Position numbers and translations under genes: made by a program. A stretch of 64,000 nt of DNA, from NCBI RefSeq assembly GCF_000024925.1, contig NC_013521.1, positions 3,720,001-3,784,000 on the forward strand, read 5' to 3'. Below, in pieces: positions 37,576 through 45,515 of this stretch. The notes beneath the pieces are model-generated. The model was not told the origin of the DNA. It did not search any database and worked only from the letters and a program-made list of their open reading frames with translations. The DNA comes from Sanguibacter keddieii DSM 10542. Its GTDB lineage: Bacteria > Actinomycetota > Actinomycetes > Actinomycetales > Cellulomonadaceae. How positions within the stretch are numbered: position 1 is the stretch's first letter; each line of letters starts with the position of its first letter.

Positions 37576-38229
37576 TCATTCGAGTCGGTCGGCCCGCCAC
37601 ATGGTCGCGGCCTGCTCGAGCTCTTCGGCGGTGCGGGTCAGCGAGGCCGCGCCGCGCGTCAGGCGGGTCCCGCGGTCGCTGTCGACGAGGTCGACCGAGT
37701 CCGCGTCGAAGGCCGCCCCGACCGCCAGGATCCGGCAGAACGCCGCGGCTCGCTCGAGCGCGACCGCGAGGTCGCCGGCGAACACGCCCGAGAGGACCGC
37801 GTCGGCAACGGTCCGCACGTCCGAGGGCCCGGGCGGGCTGACCACCCCGGCGACGACCTCGTGCACGGGCGCAGCGTCAACCCCGAGCCGGAACCGCTCG
37901 GCCACGGTCGTCGGGTCACGGCGCACCCACTCGCGCAGGACGTAGAGCCGCCAGAGCGCTCCGGGCAACGTCTCGGCCGGGCTGTCGGCCCAGAGACCGG
38001 CCACCACGTCGAGCCCTTCGTGCTCGACGAGCCGGACCAGGCGGTCGACCACCTCGGGGTCCTCCTTGGCGCGCGCCCGGTGCACGATCGCGGCGGCGGT
38101 CGTGTGCGCGATCTCCCCCCGGAGCGTCGGGTCGAGGGACCCCGGGATCTCCTCGGCCGCGCGCGGGTCGAGCATCGCCGGACGGCGGGGCTGCGGGCGC
38201 CCGCCCACGGGACCAGGTGAGTCAGTCAT
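37576..38229 (-). CDS. Conserved-looking hypothetical actinobacterial protein
   Basis: The 217-residue protein is soluble and mostly helical, with no signal peptide or membrane helix. It begins with a Pro/Arg-rich stretch, and its core includes EEIPGSLDPTLRGEIAHTTA, a segment DVVAGLWADSPAETLPGALW, and WVRRDPTTVAERF. I do not recognise a family or catalytic motif. ATG 38229 was chosen because in-frame sequence upstream is unlike protein; a promoter candidate lies 65-90 bp upstream. No operon partner. Confidence 0.75.
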   Translation of the reverse strand: MTDSPGPVGGRPQPRRPAMLDPRAAEEIPGSLDPTLRGEIAHTTAAAIVHRARAKEDPEVVDRLVRLVEHEGLDVVAGLWADSPAETLPGALWRLYVLREWVRRDPTTVAERFRLGVDAAPVHEVVAGVVSPPGPSDVRTVADAVLSGVFAGDLAVALERAAAFCRILAVGAAFDADSVDLVDSDRGTRLTRGAASLTRTAEELEQAATMWRADRLE

Positions 38230-38293
38230 GCAGACCAGTCTCGCCCCGGGACGGTCGGGTGCCAACCGTGAGCACACCCAAACGTACGAAGAG

Positions 38294-38321
38294 TCACTAT
38301 CCTCGTAAAGCTGCTTGACAA
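38294..38321 (-). promoter_or_regulatory. Candidate promoter of the 37576-38229 gene
   Basis: On the minus strand TTGTCA (38321-38316) and TAGTGA (38299-38294) are spaced by 16 bases, a fair -35/-10 pair about 65 bp before ATG 38229. This stretch is distinctly less GC-rich than its surroundings. The -35 overlaps TTGACA on the other strand (38315-38320), but no matching plus-strand -10 was found. Confidence 0.4.
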
Positions 38322-38603
38322 CCCAAATTGTTGATAACCACCTTATGGGACAAGGCGTCGAAGCCGACGCCTCGGCACAGAGGCCCTCGGGCCCCTGCAC
38401 GGACCACGAGCACAGGCGCTCCAGCTGGTCCACCGGCACTCACAGCAGCGTCCGACAGGCCGACTGCCCGAGAGCCTCCCAGGTGATGGTTGTCCGTGGT
38501 GGACGCAGGTCGAGACCGGGCGCACAGATGCTCCCGACCAGACCTGCTCCGCCCCGCCCCCGCGCTCTCACCCCACCCTCCAGCTCCAAGGGAGAGACCA
38601 GAG
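38322..38603 (+). other. Leader region of the secreted-peptide gene
   Basis: About 280 bp separate the divergent promoter from the peptide gene. The left end is A/T-rich for this genome, with an imperfect dyad TTGACAA/TTGTTGA around 38315-38334. The rest is GC-rich with no reliable frame. The ribosome binding site of the peptide gene (GGGAGAG) is at about 38590. No convincing plus-strand promoter could be chosen. Confidence 0.35.
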
Positions 38604-38954
38604 ATGAAGCACCGGAAGACGATCACACTCGCGTTGGCAGCCGCACTGATGGCTGCAGGCATGACGAGCGCACAGGCCGGCACGGGATCGATGAACTGCA
38701 ACGTCAACTCGTCGTTCGCAGGACAGACACAGACGAGCTCCGCCAGGACATGGCAGTCGGCAGACCATGCGTGCGGTTCCGTCCAGGTCAACGCGAACTT
38801 CAGACGCCCTGGAGATCCCGTGACCATCCACCAGACAGGAGTGCGGAGCCATCACCGCTCTGTCGCGGTCTCACCCGGGGGTGTCCTCTCGGCCGTGCAC
38901 TCCGTGACAAGGGCGCACTGGCCCTACGGTCACTCGTTTACGACGCGGGTTTGA
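38604..38954 (+). CDS. Small secreted two-cysteine peptide precursor
   Basis: The 116-residue precursor has a clear signal peptide (basic MKHRK, hydrophobic core, cut after TSAQA at about 24). The mature part of about 92 residues has exactly two cysteines (in MNC and HAC), many Ser/Thr/His/Arg and little acidic charge. Two free Cys suggest one disulfide. The layout recalls lactococcin 972-like bacteriocin precursors, whose genes also sit by an ABC exporter, but the conserved C-terminal pattern of that family is not obvious. ATG 38604 has GGGAGAG upstream. Less biased codons than the neighbours suggest acquisition. It is followed by a strong hairpin and then the lipoprotein, adaptor and ABC genes. 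Function is inferred only from context. Confidence 0.8.
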   Translation: MKHRKTITLALAAALMAAGMTSAQAGTGSMNCNVNSSFAGQTQTSSARTWQSADHACGSVQVNANFRRPGDPVTIHQTGVRSHHRSVAVSPGGVLSAVHSVTRAHWPYGHSFTTRV

Positions 38955-38973
38955 ACCCGACCCGTCGATCTCC

Positions 38974-39007
38974 GGCGGGCACCCCGTCCACAGACGGGGT
39001 GCCCGCC
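38974..39007 (+). terminator. Perfect 15-bp hairpin after the peptide gene
   Basis: GGCGGGCACCCCGTC and GACGGGGTGCCCGCC pair exactly around a CACA loop, 20 bases after the peptide stop. It lies between the peptide and lipoprotein genes, so it could make the peptide mRNA more abundant than the downstream transporter mRNA by partial termination or protection of the 3' end. Confidence 0.75.
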
Positions 39008-39057
39008 CCCCCTCGCCCGCACTGAGCTCTCTCCCTTCCCTTCTGCCGGAGACCCAC

Positions 39058-39525
39058 ATGAAAACCTGCCTCCTCATCGCCCTGCTGCTGCTCACGACGT
39101 CCTGCTCGTCGACGTCGCCGGACACCGGGCCGGACGGACGAACTGCCGAGCCTGAACGGTCTGCCGCGCAGACCCGCGCCGTGGAGACCGGCGAGGTCAC
39201 CGCCGACGACTACGAGCAGGCCTTCCGCGAGTTCCAGGCCTGCATGGCCGACGGCGGCTACGAGGTCTCCGACAGCGGGATGACCGGCAACGTCTACGAC
39301 TACTCCTTCCCGCAGGCAGCCACAGGCGCCGGAGTGTACGAGCCCTGCTACGAGTACCACTTCTCCGAGATCGACCTTGTGTGGCAGCTCGCCAACGAGG
39401 ACTTCTCATACACCACGCAGCTCATCAAGAAGTGCCTCCTCGAACGCGGGATCGAACCGCAGGACACCTCACGAGAGGTCAATGCCCAGCTCGACGAGCA
39501 CGGCATCTCCTTCGGTGACTGCTGA
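39058..39525 (+). CDS. Small lipoprotein of the peptide-ABC locus
   Basis: The 155-residue protein has a lipoprotein signal peptide with lipobox LTTSC, so Cys16 should be lipidated and the protein held on the outer face of the membrane. The mature part is acidic and contains EQAFREFQACMADGGY, a patterned helix with a Cys, and further Cys residues in EPCYEYHF, LIKKCLLERG and at the C-terminus, which suggests disulfides. The gene stands 31 bp before the adaptor gene and is likely in its operon. A role as immunity or receptor component is possible but unproven. No known domain. Confidence 0.82.
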   Translation: MKTCLLIALLLLTTSCSSTSPDTGPDGRTAEPERSAAQTRAVETGEVTADDYEQAFREFQACMADGGYEVSDSGMTGNVYDYSFPQAATGAGVYEPCYEYHFSEIDLVWQLANEDFSYTTQLIKKCLLERGIEPQDTSREVNAQLDEHGISFGDC

Positions 39526-39556
39526 CCTGGCCTCTAGACACCCACGAAGGACACTC

Positions 39557-40711
39557 ATGCGATCTCGCACCGAGAGGCCGCCGCCACCAGCGCCACGGAC
39601 CCGACTCTTCCGCGCTCTGGCCTTCACCGCGCCGCTCGTCGCGCTCTGGCTCGTGCCTGTGCTCGCACTGGCCGTCGTGGTGCCGCTCGCCACGTCACGG
39701 GAGGCCTCGTCGGTCGAGTCAGAGCTGCCGGTCACGGCGACGGTCGGGTCGCGGGAGGACGACTACCGCCAGACCGTCACCGCCACGTTCCAGGTCACGG
39801 CCCCCCACGACGTCGTCGTCCCGGCGGCCGGGCTCGTCACCGCGGTGCACGCGTCGCCCGGGCAGGTGCTGGCCCCGACCGACGCGGTGGTCTCCGTCGA
39901 CGGCGCGGTGCTGCGCGCTCACGTGGCCGAGGCGCCGCTCTACCGCGAGATCGGCCCGGGCACGTCCGGCGCCGACGTCGAAGGGCTGCGTGACTACCTG
40001 GCAGCCGCAGGGTCGGAGACCACGCTCGGGCGAGGCGCGTCGTACAGCCCGAGCCTGCGGCGCGCGATCACCGCGTACCAGCGCGCCAACGGGTTCCCCG
40101 CGGACGGGGTCTTCCAGCCGTCGTCCGTGGTGTTCGTCCCTGCCGGGTCGCCGTCCGTGCAGTCGGTGCTGACGTCGGTCGGGGAGATGGTGGCCCTCGG
40201 TGACCCGGTGATCGCCGGGCCGGTGCTGCCGCTCTCGCTCACCCTCAGCGCCGAGTCGACGCTCCGGCTCGCCGGCAAGGACGGACCGTTCGCCCTCCTG
40301 CTCTCCGACGAGGAGGTCCCCGTAACCTCCCTGGCGCCGGCCCCCGAGGAGGTCCACGCGCTCCATGCCGCCCTCGTCTCTGCGGCGGAGCGCGGCACGG
40401 TCGACCTGACCACCGACGACACCACGCAGTCCTTCACCGGCCTCGTGCTCCACCTGCCCGACGCACCCGTGCGCGGCACCGTGCCCACCACCGCCGTCTA
40501 CACCACGGCAGCCGGCACGCGGTGCGTGTTCAGCACGGACGAGACGCGCAGCACCGGCGTCGTCACCTCCGCCGATGCGATCCCGCTGACCGACGCGACC
40601 ACGGTCGACGGCGAGATCGGCCTCGCCTCCGTCCCCGCGGACCTGGTCGGCCAGACCGTCGTCCGCAACCCCCGGTCGCTCCCCGGCTCCGTGCTGGACG
40701 ACTGCGCATGA
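39557..40711 (+). CDS. Membrane adaptor with peptidoglycan-binding domain (MacA/HlyD-like)
   Basis: The 384-residue protein has a basic Pro-rich head, one membrane helix (about 20-45) and an exposed part. That part begins with a lipoyl/barrel-like segment (VVVPAAGLVTAVHASPGQVL), as in efflux adaptors. A PG_binding_1-type domain interrupts it (about 135-195; GADVEGLRDYLAA, AITAYQRANGFPADGVF), and then come beta-rich segments. Such fusions accompany MacB-like ABC permeases in Gram-positive bacteria and may fix the transporter to the wall. ATG 39557 has GAAGG upstream. The stop overlaps the start of the ABC ATPase gene (ATGA), so the products are coupled. Confidence 0.87.
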   Translation: MRSRTERPPPPAPRTRLFRALAFTAPLVALWLVPVLALAVVVPLATSREASSVESELPVTATVGSREDDYRQTVTATFQVTAPHDVVVPAAGLVTAVHASPGQVLAPTDAVVSVDGAVLRAHVAEAPLYREIGPGTSGADVEGLRDYLAAAGSETTLGRGASYSPSLRRAITAYQRANGFPADGVFQPSSVVFVPAGSPSVQSVLTSVGEMVALGDPVIAGPVLPLSLTLSAESTLRLAGKDGPFALLLSDEEVPVTSLAPAPEEVHALHAALVSAAERGTVDLTTDDTTQSFTGLVLHLPDAPVRGTVPTTAVYTTAAGTRCVFSTDETRSTGVVTSADAIPLTDATTVDGEIGLASVPADLVGQTVVRNPRSLPGSVLDDCA

Positions 40712-41352
40712 GACAGCTGGAGGTGCGTTTCGACTCGGTGTCCTTCGCCTTCGGGGACCGCGTGGTCCTCGACGGCTTCTCGGCGGTCCTGCACCCCGGT
40801 CAGGTCGGCGCGCTCGTCGGCCCGTCGGGCAGCGGCAAGTCCACCCTGCTCAACGCCGTCAGCGGGTTCGTCGCCCCGAGCGCAGGGGCCGTCTCGCTGC
40901 GCCGGGTCGACGACGGGACCGTCACCGGTCCCAGCCCAGAGCTCGTCGCGTGGGTCCCTCAGGGGGCGAACTGCCTCGGTGCGCGCAGCGCGCTCGACAA
41001 CGTCATGCTCGGACCGCTGGGCGACGGGCAGCCTCTCCCCGCGGCTCGCCGCACCGCGCACGACGCCCTCGACCGGGTCGGCCTCGCCGACCGTGCGTCG
41101 TCGCTGGCGCGCACGCTCTCCGGCGGGGAGCTGCAGCGCGTGAGCCTCGCACGGGCCCTCGCGTCGTCGAAGCCGATCATCCTCGCGGACGAGCCCACCT
41201 CGAGCCTCGACGCGGCCAGCACCGAGGTCGTCGCCGCACTCCTCCACTCGCTGAGCGTCGACGCGACCGTGGTGGTCGCCACGCACGACCCGCTCCTCAT
41301 CGCTGCCGCGAGCTACGCCGTCGACATCCGGAGGCGCAGCCGTGCAGCATGA
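40708..41352 (+). CDS. ABC transporter ATP-binding protein (MacB/LolD-like)
   Basis: The 214-residue ATPase has Walker A GPSGSGKST (38-46), a Q-loop in VPQGAN (about 83), signature LSGGE (137-141), Walker B IILADE (157-162), the D-loop SSLD and switch His193 in ATHD. Length and sequence fit the MacB/LolD subfamily, which works mechanically with FtsX-like permeases and not as a conventional channel. It overlaps the adaptor gene by four bases and the permease gene by 11 bases. All catalytic motifs are intact. Confidence 0.94.
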   Translation: MRQLEVRFDSVSFAFGDRVVLDGFSAVLHPGQVGALVGPSGSGKSTLLNAVSGFVAPSAGAVSLRRVDDGTVTGPSPELVAWVPQGANCLGARSALDNVMLGPLGDGQPLPAARRTAHDALDRVGLADRASSLARTLSGGELQRVSLARALASSKPIILADEPTSSLDAASTEVVAALLHSLSVDATVVVATHDPLLIAAASYAVDIRRRSRAA

Positions 41353-42388
41353 CCGGTGGTCGCTGACCATGCTGGTCCGCGAGGCGGTGAAGAACGTCCT
41401 CTCTCCGGCCGCCAGGATGTTCCCGGTGCTCGCGGTGGCGGTCCTCCTCGGCGCCGGGCAGACCGCCCTCGTAGTGCACCAGGCTGACGCGCTCGGTTCC
41501 ACCCTCGACGACCTCGGCCTCGCCGGACGCAACGTCGTGGTGCTCACGCCGCCCGCGTCGGATGCCGTCAGCACCGTGAGCCGCACCTCCTGCGACGGGC
41601 TGACCCGGTACGACCAGGTGCAGGCCGCAGGTCTGGTCGGACGCGCCGAGCGGACCGACCTTGTCGAGCTCGGCTCGTTCGTACCGCTCCAGCCGGTCAG
41701 CGACACGCTCCTGCCTCTGCTCACCACGCACGACGCCGTGGTCGGCGCGGCGCTCTGGCCCGACGCCGACGCCGACGAGTCGATCGTGCTCGTCACCGCG
41801 AGCGGGCAGGTGCTCCAGGCGGCGCTAGGTCCACCGGTACCCGCAGGGATCTCCACTGGGGCCGCACTCGGCGTCCCACTCGACCCCACGACGACCACGG
41901 GCGACCACTGCGTCGTGGTGCTCGACCCCTACCTGCCGGTCCAGGAGTCCCGGCAGGTAGTGCTGTCCGAGCTGCAGCTCGTCGGCGAGCCCTTGGTCGC
42001 GACGTCGCCGTACAGCGAGACCGTCGACGTCGTCGCACGACACCTGGCCCGCACCGAGAGGTTCCTCCCCGGTGCGGTCGCCGTCCTCGCAGGTTTCACC
42101 GCACTGGCCCTGAGCAGGCTCCGGTCGAGCGAGCTCGCGGCGTACCGGCTCTCCGGGACGTCTCGGCGGTCCCTCGCGACGATGCTGCTGCTGGAGCAGA
42201 TGATCGTCGCAGGCTTCTTCGTCACGTCGGGCACCACCGCAGCACTCGTCCTCGGGACGCACCTGCGCGACCCCGCCGTCCCGGTCCTCTGGGCGGTCGT
42301 CGGCGGTCTGGCCTGGGTGGTCTGCGCCGGGACCGCTGCCTCCGCAGCCGTGCTCCGCCGGGCCTCGGACCTCGCCAAAGACCGGTGA
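41342..42388 (+). CDS. FtsX/MacB-like ABC permease
   Basis: The 348-residue protein has one membrane helix near the N-terminus (about 26-44), an exposed domain of about 190 residues with two Cys, and three helices at the C-terminus (about 240-345). This is the MacB/FtsX topology. GTG 41342 overlaps the ATPase gene by 11 bases and has GGAGG upstream. Together with the adaptor and ATPase it should form a transporter that uses ATP for periplasm-side or wall-side work, such as release of the nearby secreted peptide or removal of a toxic one. Direction and substrate are inferred. Confidence 0.88.
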   Translation: MQHDRWSLTMLVREAVKNVLSPAARMFPVLAVAVLLGAGQTALVVHQADALGSTLDDLGLAGRNVVVLTPPASDAVSTVSRTSCDGLTRYDQVQAAGLVGRAERTDLVELGSFVPLQPVSDTLLPLLTTHDAVVGAALWPDADADESIVLVTASGQVLQAALGPPVPAGISTGAALGVPLDPTTTTGDHCVVVLDPYLPVQESRQVVLSELQLVGEPLVATSPYSETVDVVARHLARTERFLPGAVAVLAGFTALALSRLRSSELAAYRLSGTSRRSLATMLLLEQMIVAGFFVTSGTTAALVLGTHLRDPAVPVLWAVVGGLAWVVCAGTAASAAVLRRASDLAKDR

Positions 42389-42619
42389 GGCCCACCCCAG
42401 GCGCAGCGGCGGTGCCGCGCCCGGTGTCCACGAGGCCACCCGCGTCGAGATCCCGCCACCCGGGCCGACGTGACGATCGCCTCACCCGTCCGGTGCACGG
42501 TTCTGCTCCTCGCGCCGATATCGTCTCGCGTCGTTACAGTGAAGATCACCCAGAGGTCCTGTGGCCGCGACGCCTGCGCCGCCGACCGCCGTGACCACGA
42601 ACGCACAGCGGAGGCAGCG

Positions 42620-44113
42620 ATGACCACGTCGTCGGCAGGACAGTCAGGCAAGGCGGGTGACGGGGGCCAGGCTCCTCCGGACAGCCCAGAGACGAAGGCC
42701 GCGCACCGCAAGGCGATCACCCTCGCCGTGTCGGCGGCGGTCGGCGGGTTCCTCTTCGGCTTCGACAGCTCGGTGATCAACGGCGCCGTCGACGCCATCG
42801 AGAAGGACTTCGAGCTCAGCTCGACGCTCGTCGGCTTCTCCGTGGCGGTGGCCCTCCTCGGCTGTGCGCTCGGCGCCTGGTACGCCGGTCGTCTGGCGGA
42901 CCGTTGGGGACGGCCGCGCGTCATGCTCGTCGGCGCGATCATGTTCCTCGTGTCGGCGGTGGGCTGCGGCTTCGCCTTCGCCGTGTGGGACCTCATCCTC
43001 TGGCGTGTGGTCGGCGGCATCGGCATCGGCATCGCGTCGGTGGTGACACCGGCGTACATCGCGGAGATCTCCCCGACCGCGATCCGCGGCCGTCTCGCGT
43101 CGCTCCAGCAGCTCGCCATCACCATCGGCATCTTCGCCGCGCTGCTCTCGGACCAGCTGTTCGCCGAGACGGCCGGCCCGGTCGCAGACGGCGCCCCGAT
43201 CGCCATGGGCGCGAGCCTCTTCGGCCTCGACGCGTGGCGCTGGATGTTCCTCATCGCGGTGGTCCCCGCCGGCATCTACGCGTGGGTGGCGCTGACCGTC
43301 CCCGAGTCGCCGCGCTACCTCGTGGGCAAGGGCAAGATCGACGAGGCCCGCGCCGTGCTGCGCTCGGTCCTCGGGCCGGTCGACCTCGACGCGAAGGTCG
43401 ACGCCATCGAGGCGTCGGTCACCCGGGACGCCAAGCTGGAGAAGCAGGCGTCGCTCAAGGGCCCACGCTTCGGCCTGCTGCCGATCGTGTGGGTCGGCAT
43501 CCTGCTGTCGGTGTTCCAGCAGCTGGTCGGCATCAACGTGATCTTCTACTACTCCACGACGCTGTGGCGCTCGGTCGGCTTCGACGACTCGCAGTCCTTC
43601 ACCGTCTCGACCATCACCGCCGTGACGAACGTGGTGGTGACCTTCGTCGCCATCGCGCTCGTCGACAAGATCGGCCGCAAGCCGCTGCTGCTCGCCGGGT
43701 CTGCCGGGATGACGGTGTCGCTGGTGATGATGGCGATCGCCTTCACGCAGTCGACCGGTTCCGGTGACGACGTCACGCTCGCCGGCTCCTGGGGCACCAT
43801 CGCCCTCGTCGCGGCGAACGTGTTCGTCGTGTCCTTCGGGGCGTCGTGGGGCCCCGTGGTGTGGGTGCTGCTCGGCGAGATGTTCCCCAACCGCATCCGC
43901 GCCTCGGCCCTCGCGATCGCCGCGGCAGCCCAGTGGCTCGCGAACTTCGCGATCACCGTGAGCTTCCCGCCGCTGTCCGAGAACCTCGGCCTGCCCTTCA
44001 CCTACGGCATGTACGGCACCTTCGCCCTGCTGTCCTTCGTGTTCGTGCTCGCCAAGGTCAAGGAGACCCGCAACCGCGACCTCGAGGACATGGAGGACGA
44101 CGTCAAGGTCTGA
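42620..44113 (+). CDS. Sugar porter family MFS transporter
   Basis: The 497-residue protein has about twelve membrane helices and the sugar-porter motifs: GGFLFGFDSSVING in helix 1, GRLADRWGRPR, PESPRYLVGKGK before the central loop, QQLVGINVIFYYS in helix 7, DKIGRKPLL, and the end motif KETRNRDLEDME. It should import a hexose, pentose or polyol with protons. ATG 42620 is preceded by GGAGG. No sugar-metabolism gene is adjacent, so the substrate is open. A perfect-stem terminator follows. Confidence 0.93.
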   Translation: MTTSSAGQSGKAGDGGQAPPDSPETKAAHRKAITLAVSAAVGGFLFGFDSSVINGAVDAIEKDFELSSTLVGFSVAVALLGCALGAWYAGRLADRWGRPRVMLVGAIMFLVSAVGCGFAFAVWDLILWRVVGGIGIGIASVVTPAYIAEISPTAIRGRLASLQQLAITIGIFAALLSDQLFAETAGPVADGAPIAMGASLFGLDAWRWMFLIAVVPAGIYAWVALTVPESPRYLVGKGKIDEARAVLRSVLGPVDLDAKVDAIEASVTRDAKLEKQASLKGPRFGLLPIVWVGILLSVFQQLVGINVIFYYSTTLWRSVGFDDSQSFTVSTITAVTNVVVTFVAIALVDKIGRKPLLLAGSAGMTVSLVMMAIAFTQSTGSGDDVTLAGSWGTIALVAANVFVVSFGASWGPVVWVLLGEMFPNRIRASALAIAAAAQWLANFAITVSFPPLSENLGLPFTYGMYGTFALLSFVFVLAKVKETRNRDLEDMEDDVKV

Positions 44114-44234: not shown

Positions 44235-45515
44235 TCAACGGACCACGGCCAGGGGGTTCGCGCCGAGCGCGGCGATGATCGCCCACGCGGTGCTCCCGGT
44301 GTGCAGCGACGAGTACACGAGGTCGCCGAACCCGGAGTCGAGGTTGTCCGACGACGCCGACGGGACGCCCATGCCGTCGGCGTACGGACCCGAGGCCTGC
44401 GCGAGCCACACGGAGTCGAGGAGCGCCGCGGCCTGCGCGGCCTCGCCGTGGGCGTCACCGGTCTCGGTCGAGCGGACGGTGAGCGCCGCGGCGAGGTGCG
44501 CCGTGCCCTCGAGCCACACCTTGTCGGTGCTCGCCACGTGGCAGACCGTCACGCCGTGCACGTCGCCGTCGTGCGCGGCGAGGTGCTCGGCGGCCCAGTC
44601 GAGGGACCCGGCGTAGGCGGGGTCGCGCAGCGCGAGGTACGTCCAGCTCTGCGCGTCCTCGGCGATGGGGTGCACGTTGGGGGTCACGCCGTCGTCGACC
44701 GTGCCGACGAGGAAGTACCCGCCCTCGGGCACCCACAGCGACTCGACGAAGGCGCGCGCGTCGGCGGCACGGTCGGCCCACTCCGCGTCGGCGGTGACCC
44801 GTGCGAGCTCGCTGAAGAACGTGTAGCAGTCGGTGTTGTGCTCGGTCGAGCGCCAGGTGAGCACGCGGCCGTCCTCGCCGCGCCCGCCGGAGAAGGCGGG
44901 CAGGCCGCGGTCGTCGTAGGTGGTCGACACGACGGTCCGGGCGAGCCGGAGGGCTGCCACGAGGAACCTGTCGTCGTCGACGGCGGAGTGCAGCGCGAGC
45001 AGCGCGATGCCGACCCAGGCCTGGTTCCCGGTGGTCGCGGCGTGCGAGGCGATCCGGGGCAGCCCGGCGTCGTCGACGGACAGGCTCGCCATGTAGGAGT
45101 TGCGGAACAGCCCGTCGAGCTCGGCGTCACCCTCCTGGAGCGTCACGAGGACGTCGCCGACGGTCGTGGCGCGCTCGACGTCTGCCGCGGAGCCGCGGGC
45201 GAGGTAGGCCAGGACCACCAGGGCGCAGTCGTAGGAGAACGCGACGTCGAAGCCGATGGATCCGAGGTACCCGCGGGAGTAGCTGCGCGGCAGCGCGCGG
45301 CTCGCCGGCGGTGCGGGCGTGCCGGGCAGGACGGGCTCGGCGAGCGGGACGAGGGCGTCGAGGAACGCGAAGGCCGCGTCGACGCCCGGGGCGGACGGCG
45401 CGACGAGCGGGGCGTCAGCCACGGCGGACTCGGTCCTCAACCCGTGGGCGACGAAGGGTGCTGCGGCGGCGAGCGCAGCGAACTGGAGCACCGTCCGTCG
45501 TTCGATCCGTGCCAT
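44235..45515 (-). CDS. Exported alpha-helical barrel protein, glycosidase-like
   Basis: The 426-residue protein starts with a twin-arginine-like signal (RR at 6-7 in ERRTVLQF, then an Ala-rich core), so export by Tat is likely. The body reads as repeated helical hairpins: YDCALVVLAYLARG, GNQAWVGIALLALHSA, WSTEHN-like NTDCYTFFSELARV and SWTYLALRDP. These resemble the (alpha/alpha)6 barrels of glycoside hydrolases and polysaccharide-acting enzymes. Asp and Glu residues in such helices could be catalytic, but no family-specific site was identified. It converges on the sugar porter, and a link through a shared carbohydrate is possible. Function uncertain. Confidence 0.82.
   Translation of the reverse strand: MARIERRTVLQFAALAAAAPFVAHGLRTESAVADAPLVAPSAPGVDAAFAFLDALVPLAEPVLPGTPAPPASRALPRSYSRGYLGSIGFDVAFSYDCALVVLAYLARGSAADVERATTVGDVLVTLQEGDAELDGLFRNSYMASLSVDDAGLPRIASHAATTGNQAWVGIALLALHSAVDDDRFLVAALRLARTVVSTTYDDRGLPAFSGGRGEDGRVLTWRSTEHNTDCYTFFSELARVTADAEWADRAADARAFVESLWVPEGGYFLVGTVDDGVTPNVHPIAEDAQSWTYLALRDPAYAGSLDWAAEHLAAHDGDVHGVTVCHVASTDKVWLEGTAHLAAALTVRSTETGDAHGEAAQAAALLDSVWLAQASGPYADGMGVPSASSDNLDSGFGDLVYSSLHTGSTAWAIIAALGANPLAVVR

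Follow-up and report, generated by a model that had tools for sequence, protein, structure and literature searches.

The described systems closest to the locus reported here are those of the lactococcin 972 family of bacteriocins, streptococcin B and mediterrocin included, in which a Sec-secreted precursor of about 90-120 amino acids is encoded beside an ATP-binding cassette (ABC) transporter set. Streptococcin B is reported to be secreted without the help of the two known peptide exporters, ComAB and BlpAB, and as of 2024 the partner genes were described there as experimentally unverified in any lactococcin 972-like locus (PMC11796350). In Brevibacterium, operons of this kind are described as encoding two membrane proteins and an ATPase and as part of an island that adjoins a tRNA gene (PMC5719810), and for mediterrocin a similar predicted structure is reported at only 18% identity (PMC12345188). 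Here we examine a five-gene locus of Sanguibacter keddieii DSM 10542 that encodes a small secreted peptide, a lipoprotein, and an adaptor, ATPase and permease. It lies within a window of 64,000 nucleotides (NC_013521.1, positions 3,720,001 to 3,784,000, forward strand; all coordinates below are positions within this window unless a locus is named). We consider it probable, with moderate confidence, that the locus is a horizontally acquired bacteriocin-like system in which the Sec-secreted peptide is accompanied by a lipoprotein and a wall-anchored MacAB-like pump for self-protection. An initial annotation made from the letters alone had called it a possible undescribed peptide system; its observations are confirmed by our follow-up, and its interpretation is supported overall.

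The locus resembles lactococcin 972 loci in having a Sec-type precursor of similar size beside an ABC set, but by every sequence test made its peptide belongs to a different family, with two invariant cysteines. The S. keddieii set also has a four-Cys lipoprotein and an adaptor with a peptidoglycan-binding domain, whereas in known lactococcin 972 loci a seven-helix DUF1430 protein is reported to be frequent (PMC12345188); in contrast to that seven-helix partner, the hydropathy of the permease here fits about four helices. Two other systems invite comparison. Spr0693-0694-0695 of Streptococcus pneumoniae (PMC5768738), a MacAB-like pump, is likewise a three-gene ABC set in a bacterium without an outer membrane, but the S. 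keddieii adaptor has a peptidoglycan-binding domain and the block adds a peptide and a lipoprotein. TMcin (PMC12328743) is also a small secreted peptide with two conserved cysteines, and has homologues in Bacillota and Actinomycetota; its mature form carries an N-terminal transmembrane helix, whereas the S. keddieii precursor has no segment above the hydropathy threshold used for membrane helices. Among the matches listed in the open-licence literature no title describes this gene set, which is weak evidence of absence. The features of the locus are as follows.

38604-38954, plus strand: peptide precursor gene, 116 amino acids (reading-frame list and translation)
38604-38678, plus strand: putative Sec-type signal peptide, 25 amino acids, ending in AQA (read from the sequence)
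38679-38951, plus strand: predicted mature peptide, 91 amino acids, Cys7 and Cys32, net charge +5 (family alignments)
38974-39007, plus strand: perfect 15-bp stem-loop without a T run, directly 3' of the peptide gene (foldings)
39058-39525, plus strand: lipoprotein gene, 155 amino acids, acidic, four conserved Cys (alignment)
39557-40711, plus strand: adaptor gene, with membrane helix, weak lipoyl-like segment and peptidoglycan-binding domain (profiles and hydropathy)
39965-40114, plus strand: PG_binding_1 domain of the adaptor, residues 137-186 (domain model match)
40708-41352, plus strand: ABC ATPase gene, motif WVPQGxN (profiles and motif)
41342-42388, plus strand: permease gene, 348 amino acids, GTG start, MacB/FtsX-like topology of 1+3 helices (hydropathy)
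38206-42453, plus strand: inserted block, missing from the other genomes of the genus (same-genus comparison)

The peptide family and its partner genes

All five plus-strand open reading frames lie where the initial annotation had placed them, and the overlaps it gave are correct, the adaptor and ATPase genes sharing 4 bases (ATGA) and the ATPase and permease genes 11. The precursor that it described, 116 residues with a signal peptide and two cysteines in the mature part, was likewise recovered: the N-terminus is signal-like and ends in AQA, the likely cleavage site being read by eye from the sequence, and the cysteines fall at residues 7 and 32 of the predicted mature peptide. Both cysteines and Gly15 are invariant in 16 aligned mature rows, and a single disulfide probably joins the two. 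Because signal peptides can mislead, leave-one-out profiles were built from mature parts only, each omitting one member together with its close relatives; of the 16 family members, 15 were recovered at E<1e-4 among 10,660 reading frames, the S. keddieii peptide at E 1.4e-6. The KH10 member was not recovered by its profile (E 6.6), while its close relative at locus L043 was (3.6e-5). Judged by these profiles and alignments, the two-cysteine peptides are one family. None of 13 mature peptides gave a significant match to a Pfam or NCBIfam model. Mature parts of the family span 71-101 residues, 20 of them are hydrophilic (grand average of hydropathy -0.08 to -0.67), and AlphaFold2 models of two members, with predicted local distance difference test (pLDDT) scores of 52 and 55, support only an all-beta pattern.

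The second gene had been described as encoding a Cys-rich lipoprotein, and this is borne out by a lipobox-like LTTSC and four further cysteines, which are present besides the lipid Cys in 14/14 aligned rows including that of S. keddieii (several rows being near-identical). We propose that it is an immunity protein or a peptide-binding partner. For the adaptor, the initial annotation had combined a membrane helix, a lipoyl-like segment and a peptidoglycan-binding domain. The first and the last stand, as a single strong N-terminal hydrophobic helix at residues 27-45 by hydropathy and as a PG_binding_1 match at residues 137-186 (29.6 bits, cut-off 23), and the lipoyl-like segment has weak support from a biotin-carrier model (E 0.086). 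The ATPase matched several NCBIfam models, namely CydD (140 bits), FtsE (119), TIGR03608 (113, against a cut-off of 254.85), LolD (106) and MacB (105), all under their equivalog cut-offs, and its matches to solved chains were mixed. The proposed FtsX/MacB-like nature of the permease agrees with its hydropathy, in which hydrophobic segments near residues 19-47 and 242-330 fit a single helix followed by a large outer domain and some three further helices; the FtsX model itself stayed under its cut-off (12.7 versus 25.5 bits), and the permease had no NCBIfam match and no solved-chain match by sequence.

Recurrence of the gene set

A search with the adaptor in 200 genomes of the bacterial family, its own included, gave matches in 80. 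Twenty adaptor regions were taken, of which the 12 best by score (L034-L045) were examined first and the remainder later. As a second route the ATPase motif WVPQG[SA]N was used alone with one genome per species, and 16 loci were confirmed out of 20 pattern matches; eight of these coincide with loci already numbered and keep those numbers in the analysis. Lipoprotein, adaptor, ATPase and permease genes stand together in 15 of the 16, the last (L109) being a cut contig that starts in the adaptor gene. Absence or unrelatedness of the small gene beside the same ABC set in relatives would have spoken against the initial annotation, but a related peptide was found in 12 of the 16 loci. Ten of these 12 are not independent finds, having been picked out by eye or being near duplicates of rows that went into the profile, so that the leave-one-out test is the independent evidence. 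Hosts of the motif loci include Agromyces, Cellulosimicrobium, Oerskovia, Rarobacter, Motilibacter, Terrabacter, Leucobacter, Demequina and Microbacterium. The lipoprotein gene lies on the opposite strand in two Rarobacter-type loci, as does the peptide gene in L108.

The search was also run in reverse, peptide profiles being applied to two possibly overlapping draws, 396 genomes from the order and 394 from the class. Six places outside the profile rows were found at E<=2e-6, and the full set was present at four of them (two in genome G436, one in G466 and one in G321). A weaker hit, in G256 (E 6.7e-4), led to a locus (L155:5289-11252; G256:C5) with two peptides and the full set on one strand, in the order peptide, lipoprotein, peptide, lipoprotein, adaptor, ATPase, permease; the first peptide matches the profile weakly (E 1.8e-4) and the second at E 2.3e-8 (earlier profile). 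These two pairs look like the pattern expected of toxins with their immunity proteins, and receptor pairs would look alike. Two Cellulosimicrobium-type loci, L036 and L040, retain lipoprotein, adaptor, ATPase and permease with no recognised peptide gene, and the ATPase and adaptor of L036 are almost identical to those of the peptide-bearing L037; L036 and L040 thereby resemble immunity-only loci. In the closest pair compared (L037 and L038) identity falls from the adaptor (97%), permease (94%) and ATPase (93%) to the lipoprotein (88%) and the mature peptide (76%).

Such co-divergence of peptide and lipoprotein, and the pairs of L155, would also fit the specificity of a pheromone. Receptors are commonly laid out as a lipoprotein next to an ABC set, and the peptide could be a pheromone or an envelope-stress signal, with the lipoprotein as its receptor and the wall-anchored ABC set as sensor-transducer or importer; the two lipoprotein paralogues at L043 and three at L044 could be read in the same way. 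There is, however, little room for a regulator in the block and none was seen, though its other open reading frames were not scanned, and at 71-101 residues the mature parts exceed the usual size of pheromones. The same core also serves lactococcin 972-like peptides, which are of a bacteriocin type. We therefore regard peptide signalling as quite improbable.

Two side observations concern the peptide genes of these loci. In Rarobacter (L044:5549-5930, also L107) the signal peptide and mature part lie in different frames, and this copy looks broken or misassembled. In Oerskovia rustica (L106:3180-3929) two different family peptides stand in tandem before one lipoprotein.

Relation to lactococcin 972-like loci and proposed function

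The lactococcin 972 model (TIGR01653) matched 21 places in 14 of the 200 family genomes, of which 19 were examined; the genome of S. keddieii gave no match at E 0.001. At seven of the 19 loci (L050, L092, L093, L094, L127, L130 and L132) an adaptor of the S. keddieii type (E 1e-21 to 1e-33) and the ATPase stand beside the peptide, and the lipoproteins there were matched by a mature-only lipoprotein profile at E 4.6e-9 to 1.2e-3. The other 12 yielded nothing below E 10 with the same profile; an ABC ATPase is encoded somewhere along each of these stretches, but none has an adaptor or lipoprotein of the S. keddieii type reaching E 0.01. The likeness to lactococcin 972 loci that the initial annotation had seen in the layout is thus real for the lipoprotein, adaptor and ATPase, and it was also right that the peptide lacks the family pattern, there being no profile or profile-profile match to lactococcin 972: the family model and its Pfam counterpart recognised neither the S. 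keddieii precursor nor any of 13 mature members. By these comparisons the core genes are shared with lactococcin 972-like loci, and the peptide not demonstrably so.

Trees of the ATPase and of the adaptor both contain a lactococcin 972-type group (9 rows), a group that we label Cellulomonas-like (10 rows) and the group of the S. keddieii locus (22 rows), the first two with support of 100/100 and at least 99/97 and the third with 94/96 and 96/93. In both trees the type of peptide follows the transporter clade. The Cellulomonas-like group has a family peptide in 6 of its 10 loci (four weak at first, one without cysteines), and its permease was recognised in only three of the 10. As a side observation, loci L099 (in G040, of the same genus) and L046 (in G189) carry a lipoprotein, adaptor and ATPase of the lactococcin 972-type clade, and neither peptide profile finds a peptide there.

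In the bacteriocin-like system that we favour, the peptide would leave the cytoplasm through the Sec pathway, be processed to a form of about 91 residues and be closed by a disulfide between its invariant cysteines, and the mature form would act on the envelope of competing related actinobacteria and presumably kill them. The acidic four-Cys lipoprotein would capture arriving peptide on the outer side of the membrane, and the pump, tethered to the wall through the peptidoglycan-binding domain of its adaptor, would drive it off the membrane and out through the wall. Given a Sec signal, the pump would not be needed for crossing the membrane, and it is for this reason that an immunity role is favoured for the lipoprotein and pump; there is a precedent in the pneumococcal MacAB-like pump, which is reported to be linked to antimicrobial-peptide resistance (PMC5768738).

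A number of results weigh against this reading. No recognised peptide was found at motif loci L105, L110 and L112, nor at the cut contig of L109. In G347 (L090:6358-7445, the same as L154) the gene behind a family peptide encodes a lipoprotein that only weakly resembles those of the set (E 0.0027), and neither an adaptor nor an ABC protein of the set occurs in 13 kb, so that this may be a minimal peptide-lipoprotein pair; in G912 (L152:5945-6400) a clear family peptide is an orphan, the 13-kb stretch holding no lipoprotein, adaptor or matching ABC (none within about 6 kb of the peptide). Linkage of peptide and pump is thus strong in these genomes, not absolute, and the pump is not always nearby. 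Net charges in the family run from -3 to +7, so that a uniform cationic action is not suggested, and in six more distant pairs of loci the peptide is not clearly faster-evolving than the lipoprotein or adaptor. The permease is the weakest link to the lactococcin 972-like loci: six of the seven have a recognisable one (E 7e-15 to 1.8e-4), L094 being the exception. Moreover, the seven peptides score 24.1-34.3 bits, one above the 32.1-bit cut-off and the others at 24.1-29.8, and these low scores make the bridge to the known bacteriocin family weaker than a count of seven suggests. Finally, alignment of mature-peptide profiles with lactococcin 972 by hhalign gave E 0.86 and 0.49, and full precursors align in their signal regions only.

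These last values bear on a special case of the bacteriocin-like reading, namely that the peptide and lactococcin 972 are homologues too far diverged for recognition by sequence, with the same fold and lipid II target and two cysteines added in the former. The shared core genes, similar precursor size and Sec-like signal fit such a homologue, and the all-beta pattern of the low-confidence models, as well as the likeness in predicted structure reported for mediterrocin (cited above), point the same way. With no profile-profile match of mature parts and 0 of 13 members matching the family model, and with structural models too weak to judge likeness to the 2LGN fold, we find this descent unlikely.

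The pump may also be assigned another task. The adaptor-ABC set could export or release the peptide across the wall, be it a toxin or not, instead of serving as an immunity pump, a proposal that is compatible with our reading of the peptide itself. That peptide type tracks transporter clade would be expected of an exporter, the peptidoglycan-binding domain suits passage through the wall, and the NCBIfam model for the ABC protein found at lactococcin 972 loci is named for a putative bacteriocin exporter (TIGR03608, to which the match noted above is distant). The precursor has a Sec-like signal, however, family members occur without a pump nearby (G912, G347), and some loci without a peptide gene still have the pump and lipoprotein. 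We consider export a live alternative, if on the unlikely side.

Beyond the single locus, we tentatively put forward a broader proposal, about which we are nearly evenly balanced and a little on the doubtful side: that these loci represent a modular platform of actinobacterial peptide warfare, with a conserved core of four-Cys lipoprotein, peptidoglycan-anchored adaptor and ATPase and a faster-changing permease. Its clades would each be dedicated to a different secreted peptide, an undescribed family of disulfide-closed bacteriocins among them, and the lipoprotein would be the cognate immunity protein for each peptide. If our reading of the locus is right, it would add a peptide family held by none of the Pfam and NCBIfam models searched, provide a handle for genome mining in the combination of the WVPQG[SA]N ATPase motif with the four-Cys lipoprotein, and name candidate immunity genes for lactococcin 972-related systems. 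It would also suggest how a peptidoglycan-tethered adaptor could let a bacterium that has no outer membrane pump a peptide across the wall.

Insertion of the block and the stem-loop after the peptide gene

The locus is flanked on the left by a minus-strand gene (37576-38229) and on the right by a sugar transporter gene (42620-44113), which adjoin each other in 5/5 other genomes of the genus, with 161-231 bp between their matched parts as against 4390 bp here. Against G019, the closest of these genomes, with flanking proteins 92% and 96% identical, homology ends at 38205 and restarts at 42454, about 89 bp lying between in G019. The block is a clean insertion that was horizontally acquired, as the initial annotation had supposed from codon usage, and it is patchy, being found by single-sequence search in its own genome and one other of the 200. 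This history also bears on the view that the peptide inhibits proteases or has a structural or housekeeping role in the wall, its place next to a transporter being incidental. Small size, secretion, two cysteines and the all-beta pattern of the low-confidence models would suit such a protein; its gene, however, came in with an insertion whose site is empty in all five of those genomes, is missing from two close loci, and is repeatedly linked to the lipoprotein and pump, which together make this view very improbable.

Less biased codons had been claimed for the peptide and lipoprotein genes, which is half right. The peptide gene is the most unusual in the block, with a codon bias under that of each of 2000 chunks of equal length from 24 reference genes, which were picked for a third-position G+C content (GC3) >0.88, a choice that favours finding unusual genes. 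The lipoprotein gene is only weakly unusual (12.75% of chunks as low), and the adaptor (0.1% of 953 chunks) and the permease (0 of 1096) are low too. Along the region from 38200 to 39600, which takes in the upstream region, the peptide gene and the lipoprotein gene, G+C is mostly 61-71% per 200 bases, versus mostly 70-78% in the flanks and pump genes.

The perfect hairpin that had been reported between the peptide and lipoprotein genes is present as a 15-bp stem (38974-38988 with 38993-39007; z -4.3, -4.9 and -6.0 in three foldings), and strong stem-loops recur at this place in relatives. Within 70 bases past the peptide stop codon a z below -3 was found for 7 of 21 peptides (S. keddieii, L034b, L042, L043, L044, L111 and L117), while in 70 bases after the lipoprotein, adaptor, ATPase and permease genes of such loci, taken as a control, a strong stem-loop occurred in 0/62. 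The stem-loop sequences differ between loci and their position agrees. A strong stem is usually absent when the lipoprotein gene begins only a few bases downstream, an exception being L117, in which the stem overlaps the lipoprotein gene. The recurrent stem-loops fit the idea of extra peptide mRNA: the structure may end or stabilise most transcripts after the peptide gene, which would yield more peptide than transporter mRNA.

Some minor observations were made around these genes. The left-hand neighbour encodes a protein of 217 amino acids that is kept in 6/6 genomes of the genus and has no Pfam match at E 0.001; further to the right, on the minus strand (44235-45515), an open reading frame of 426 amino acids with a signal-like, twin-arginine-like N-terminus also has no Pfam match at that threshold. 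A run of 52 bases at the start of the peptide gene (38594-38645) shares 81% identity (E 2e-7) with the start region of the sugar transporter gene in G019, perhaps by chance and perhaps as a trace of how the block was placed. At L152, a gene that we read as a resolvase-like recombinase lies about 3 kb upstream of the orphan peptide.

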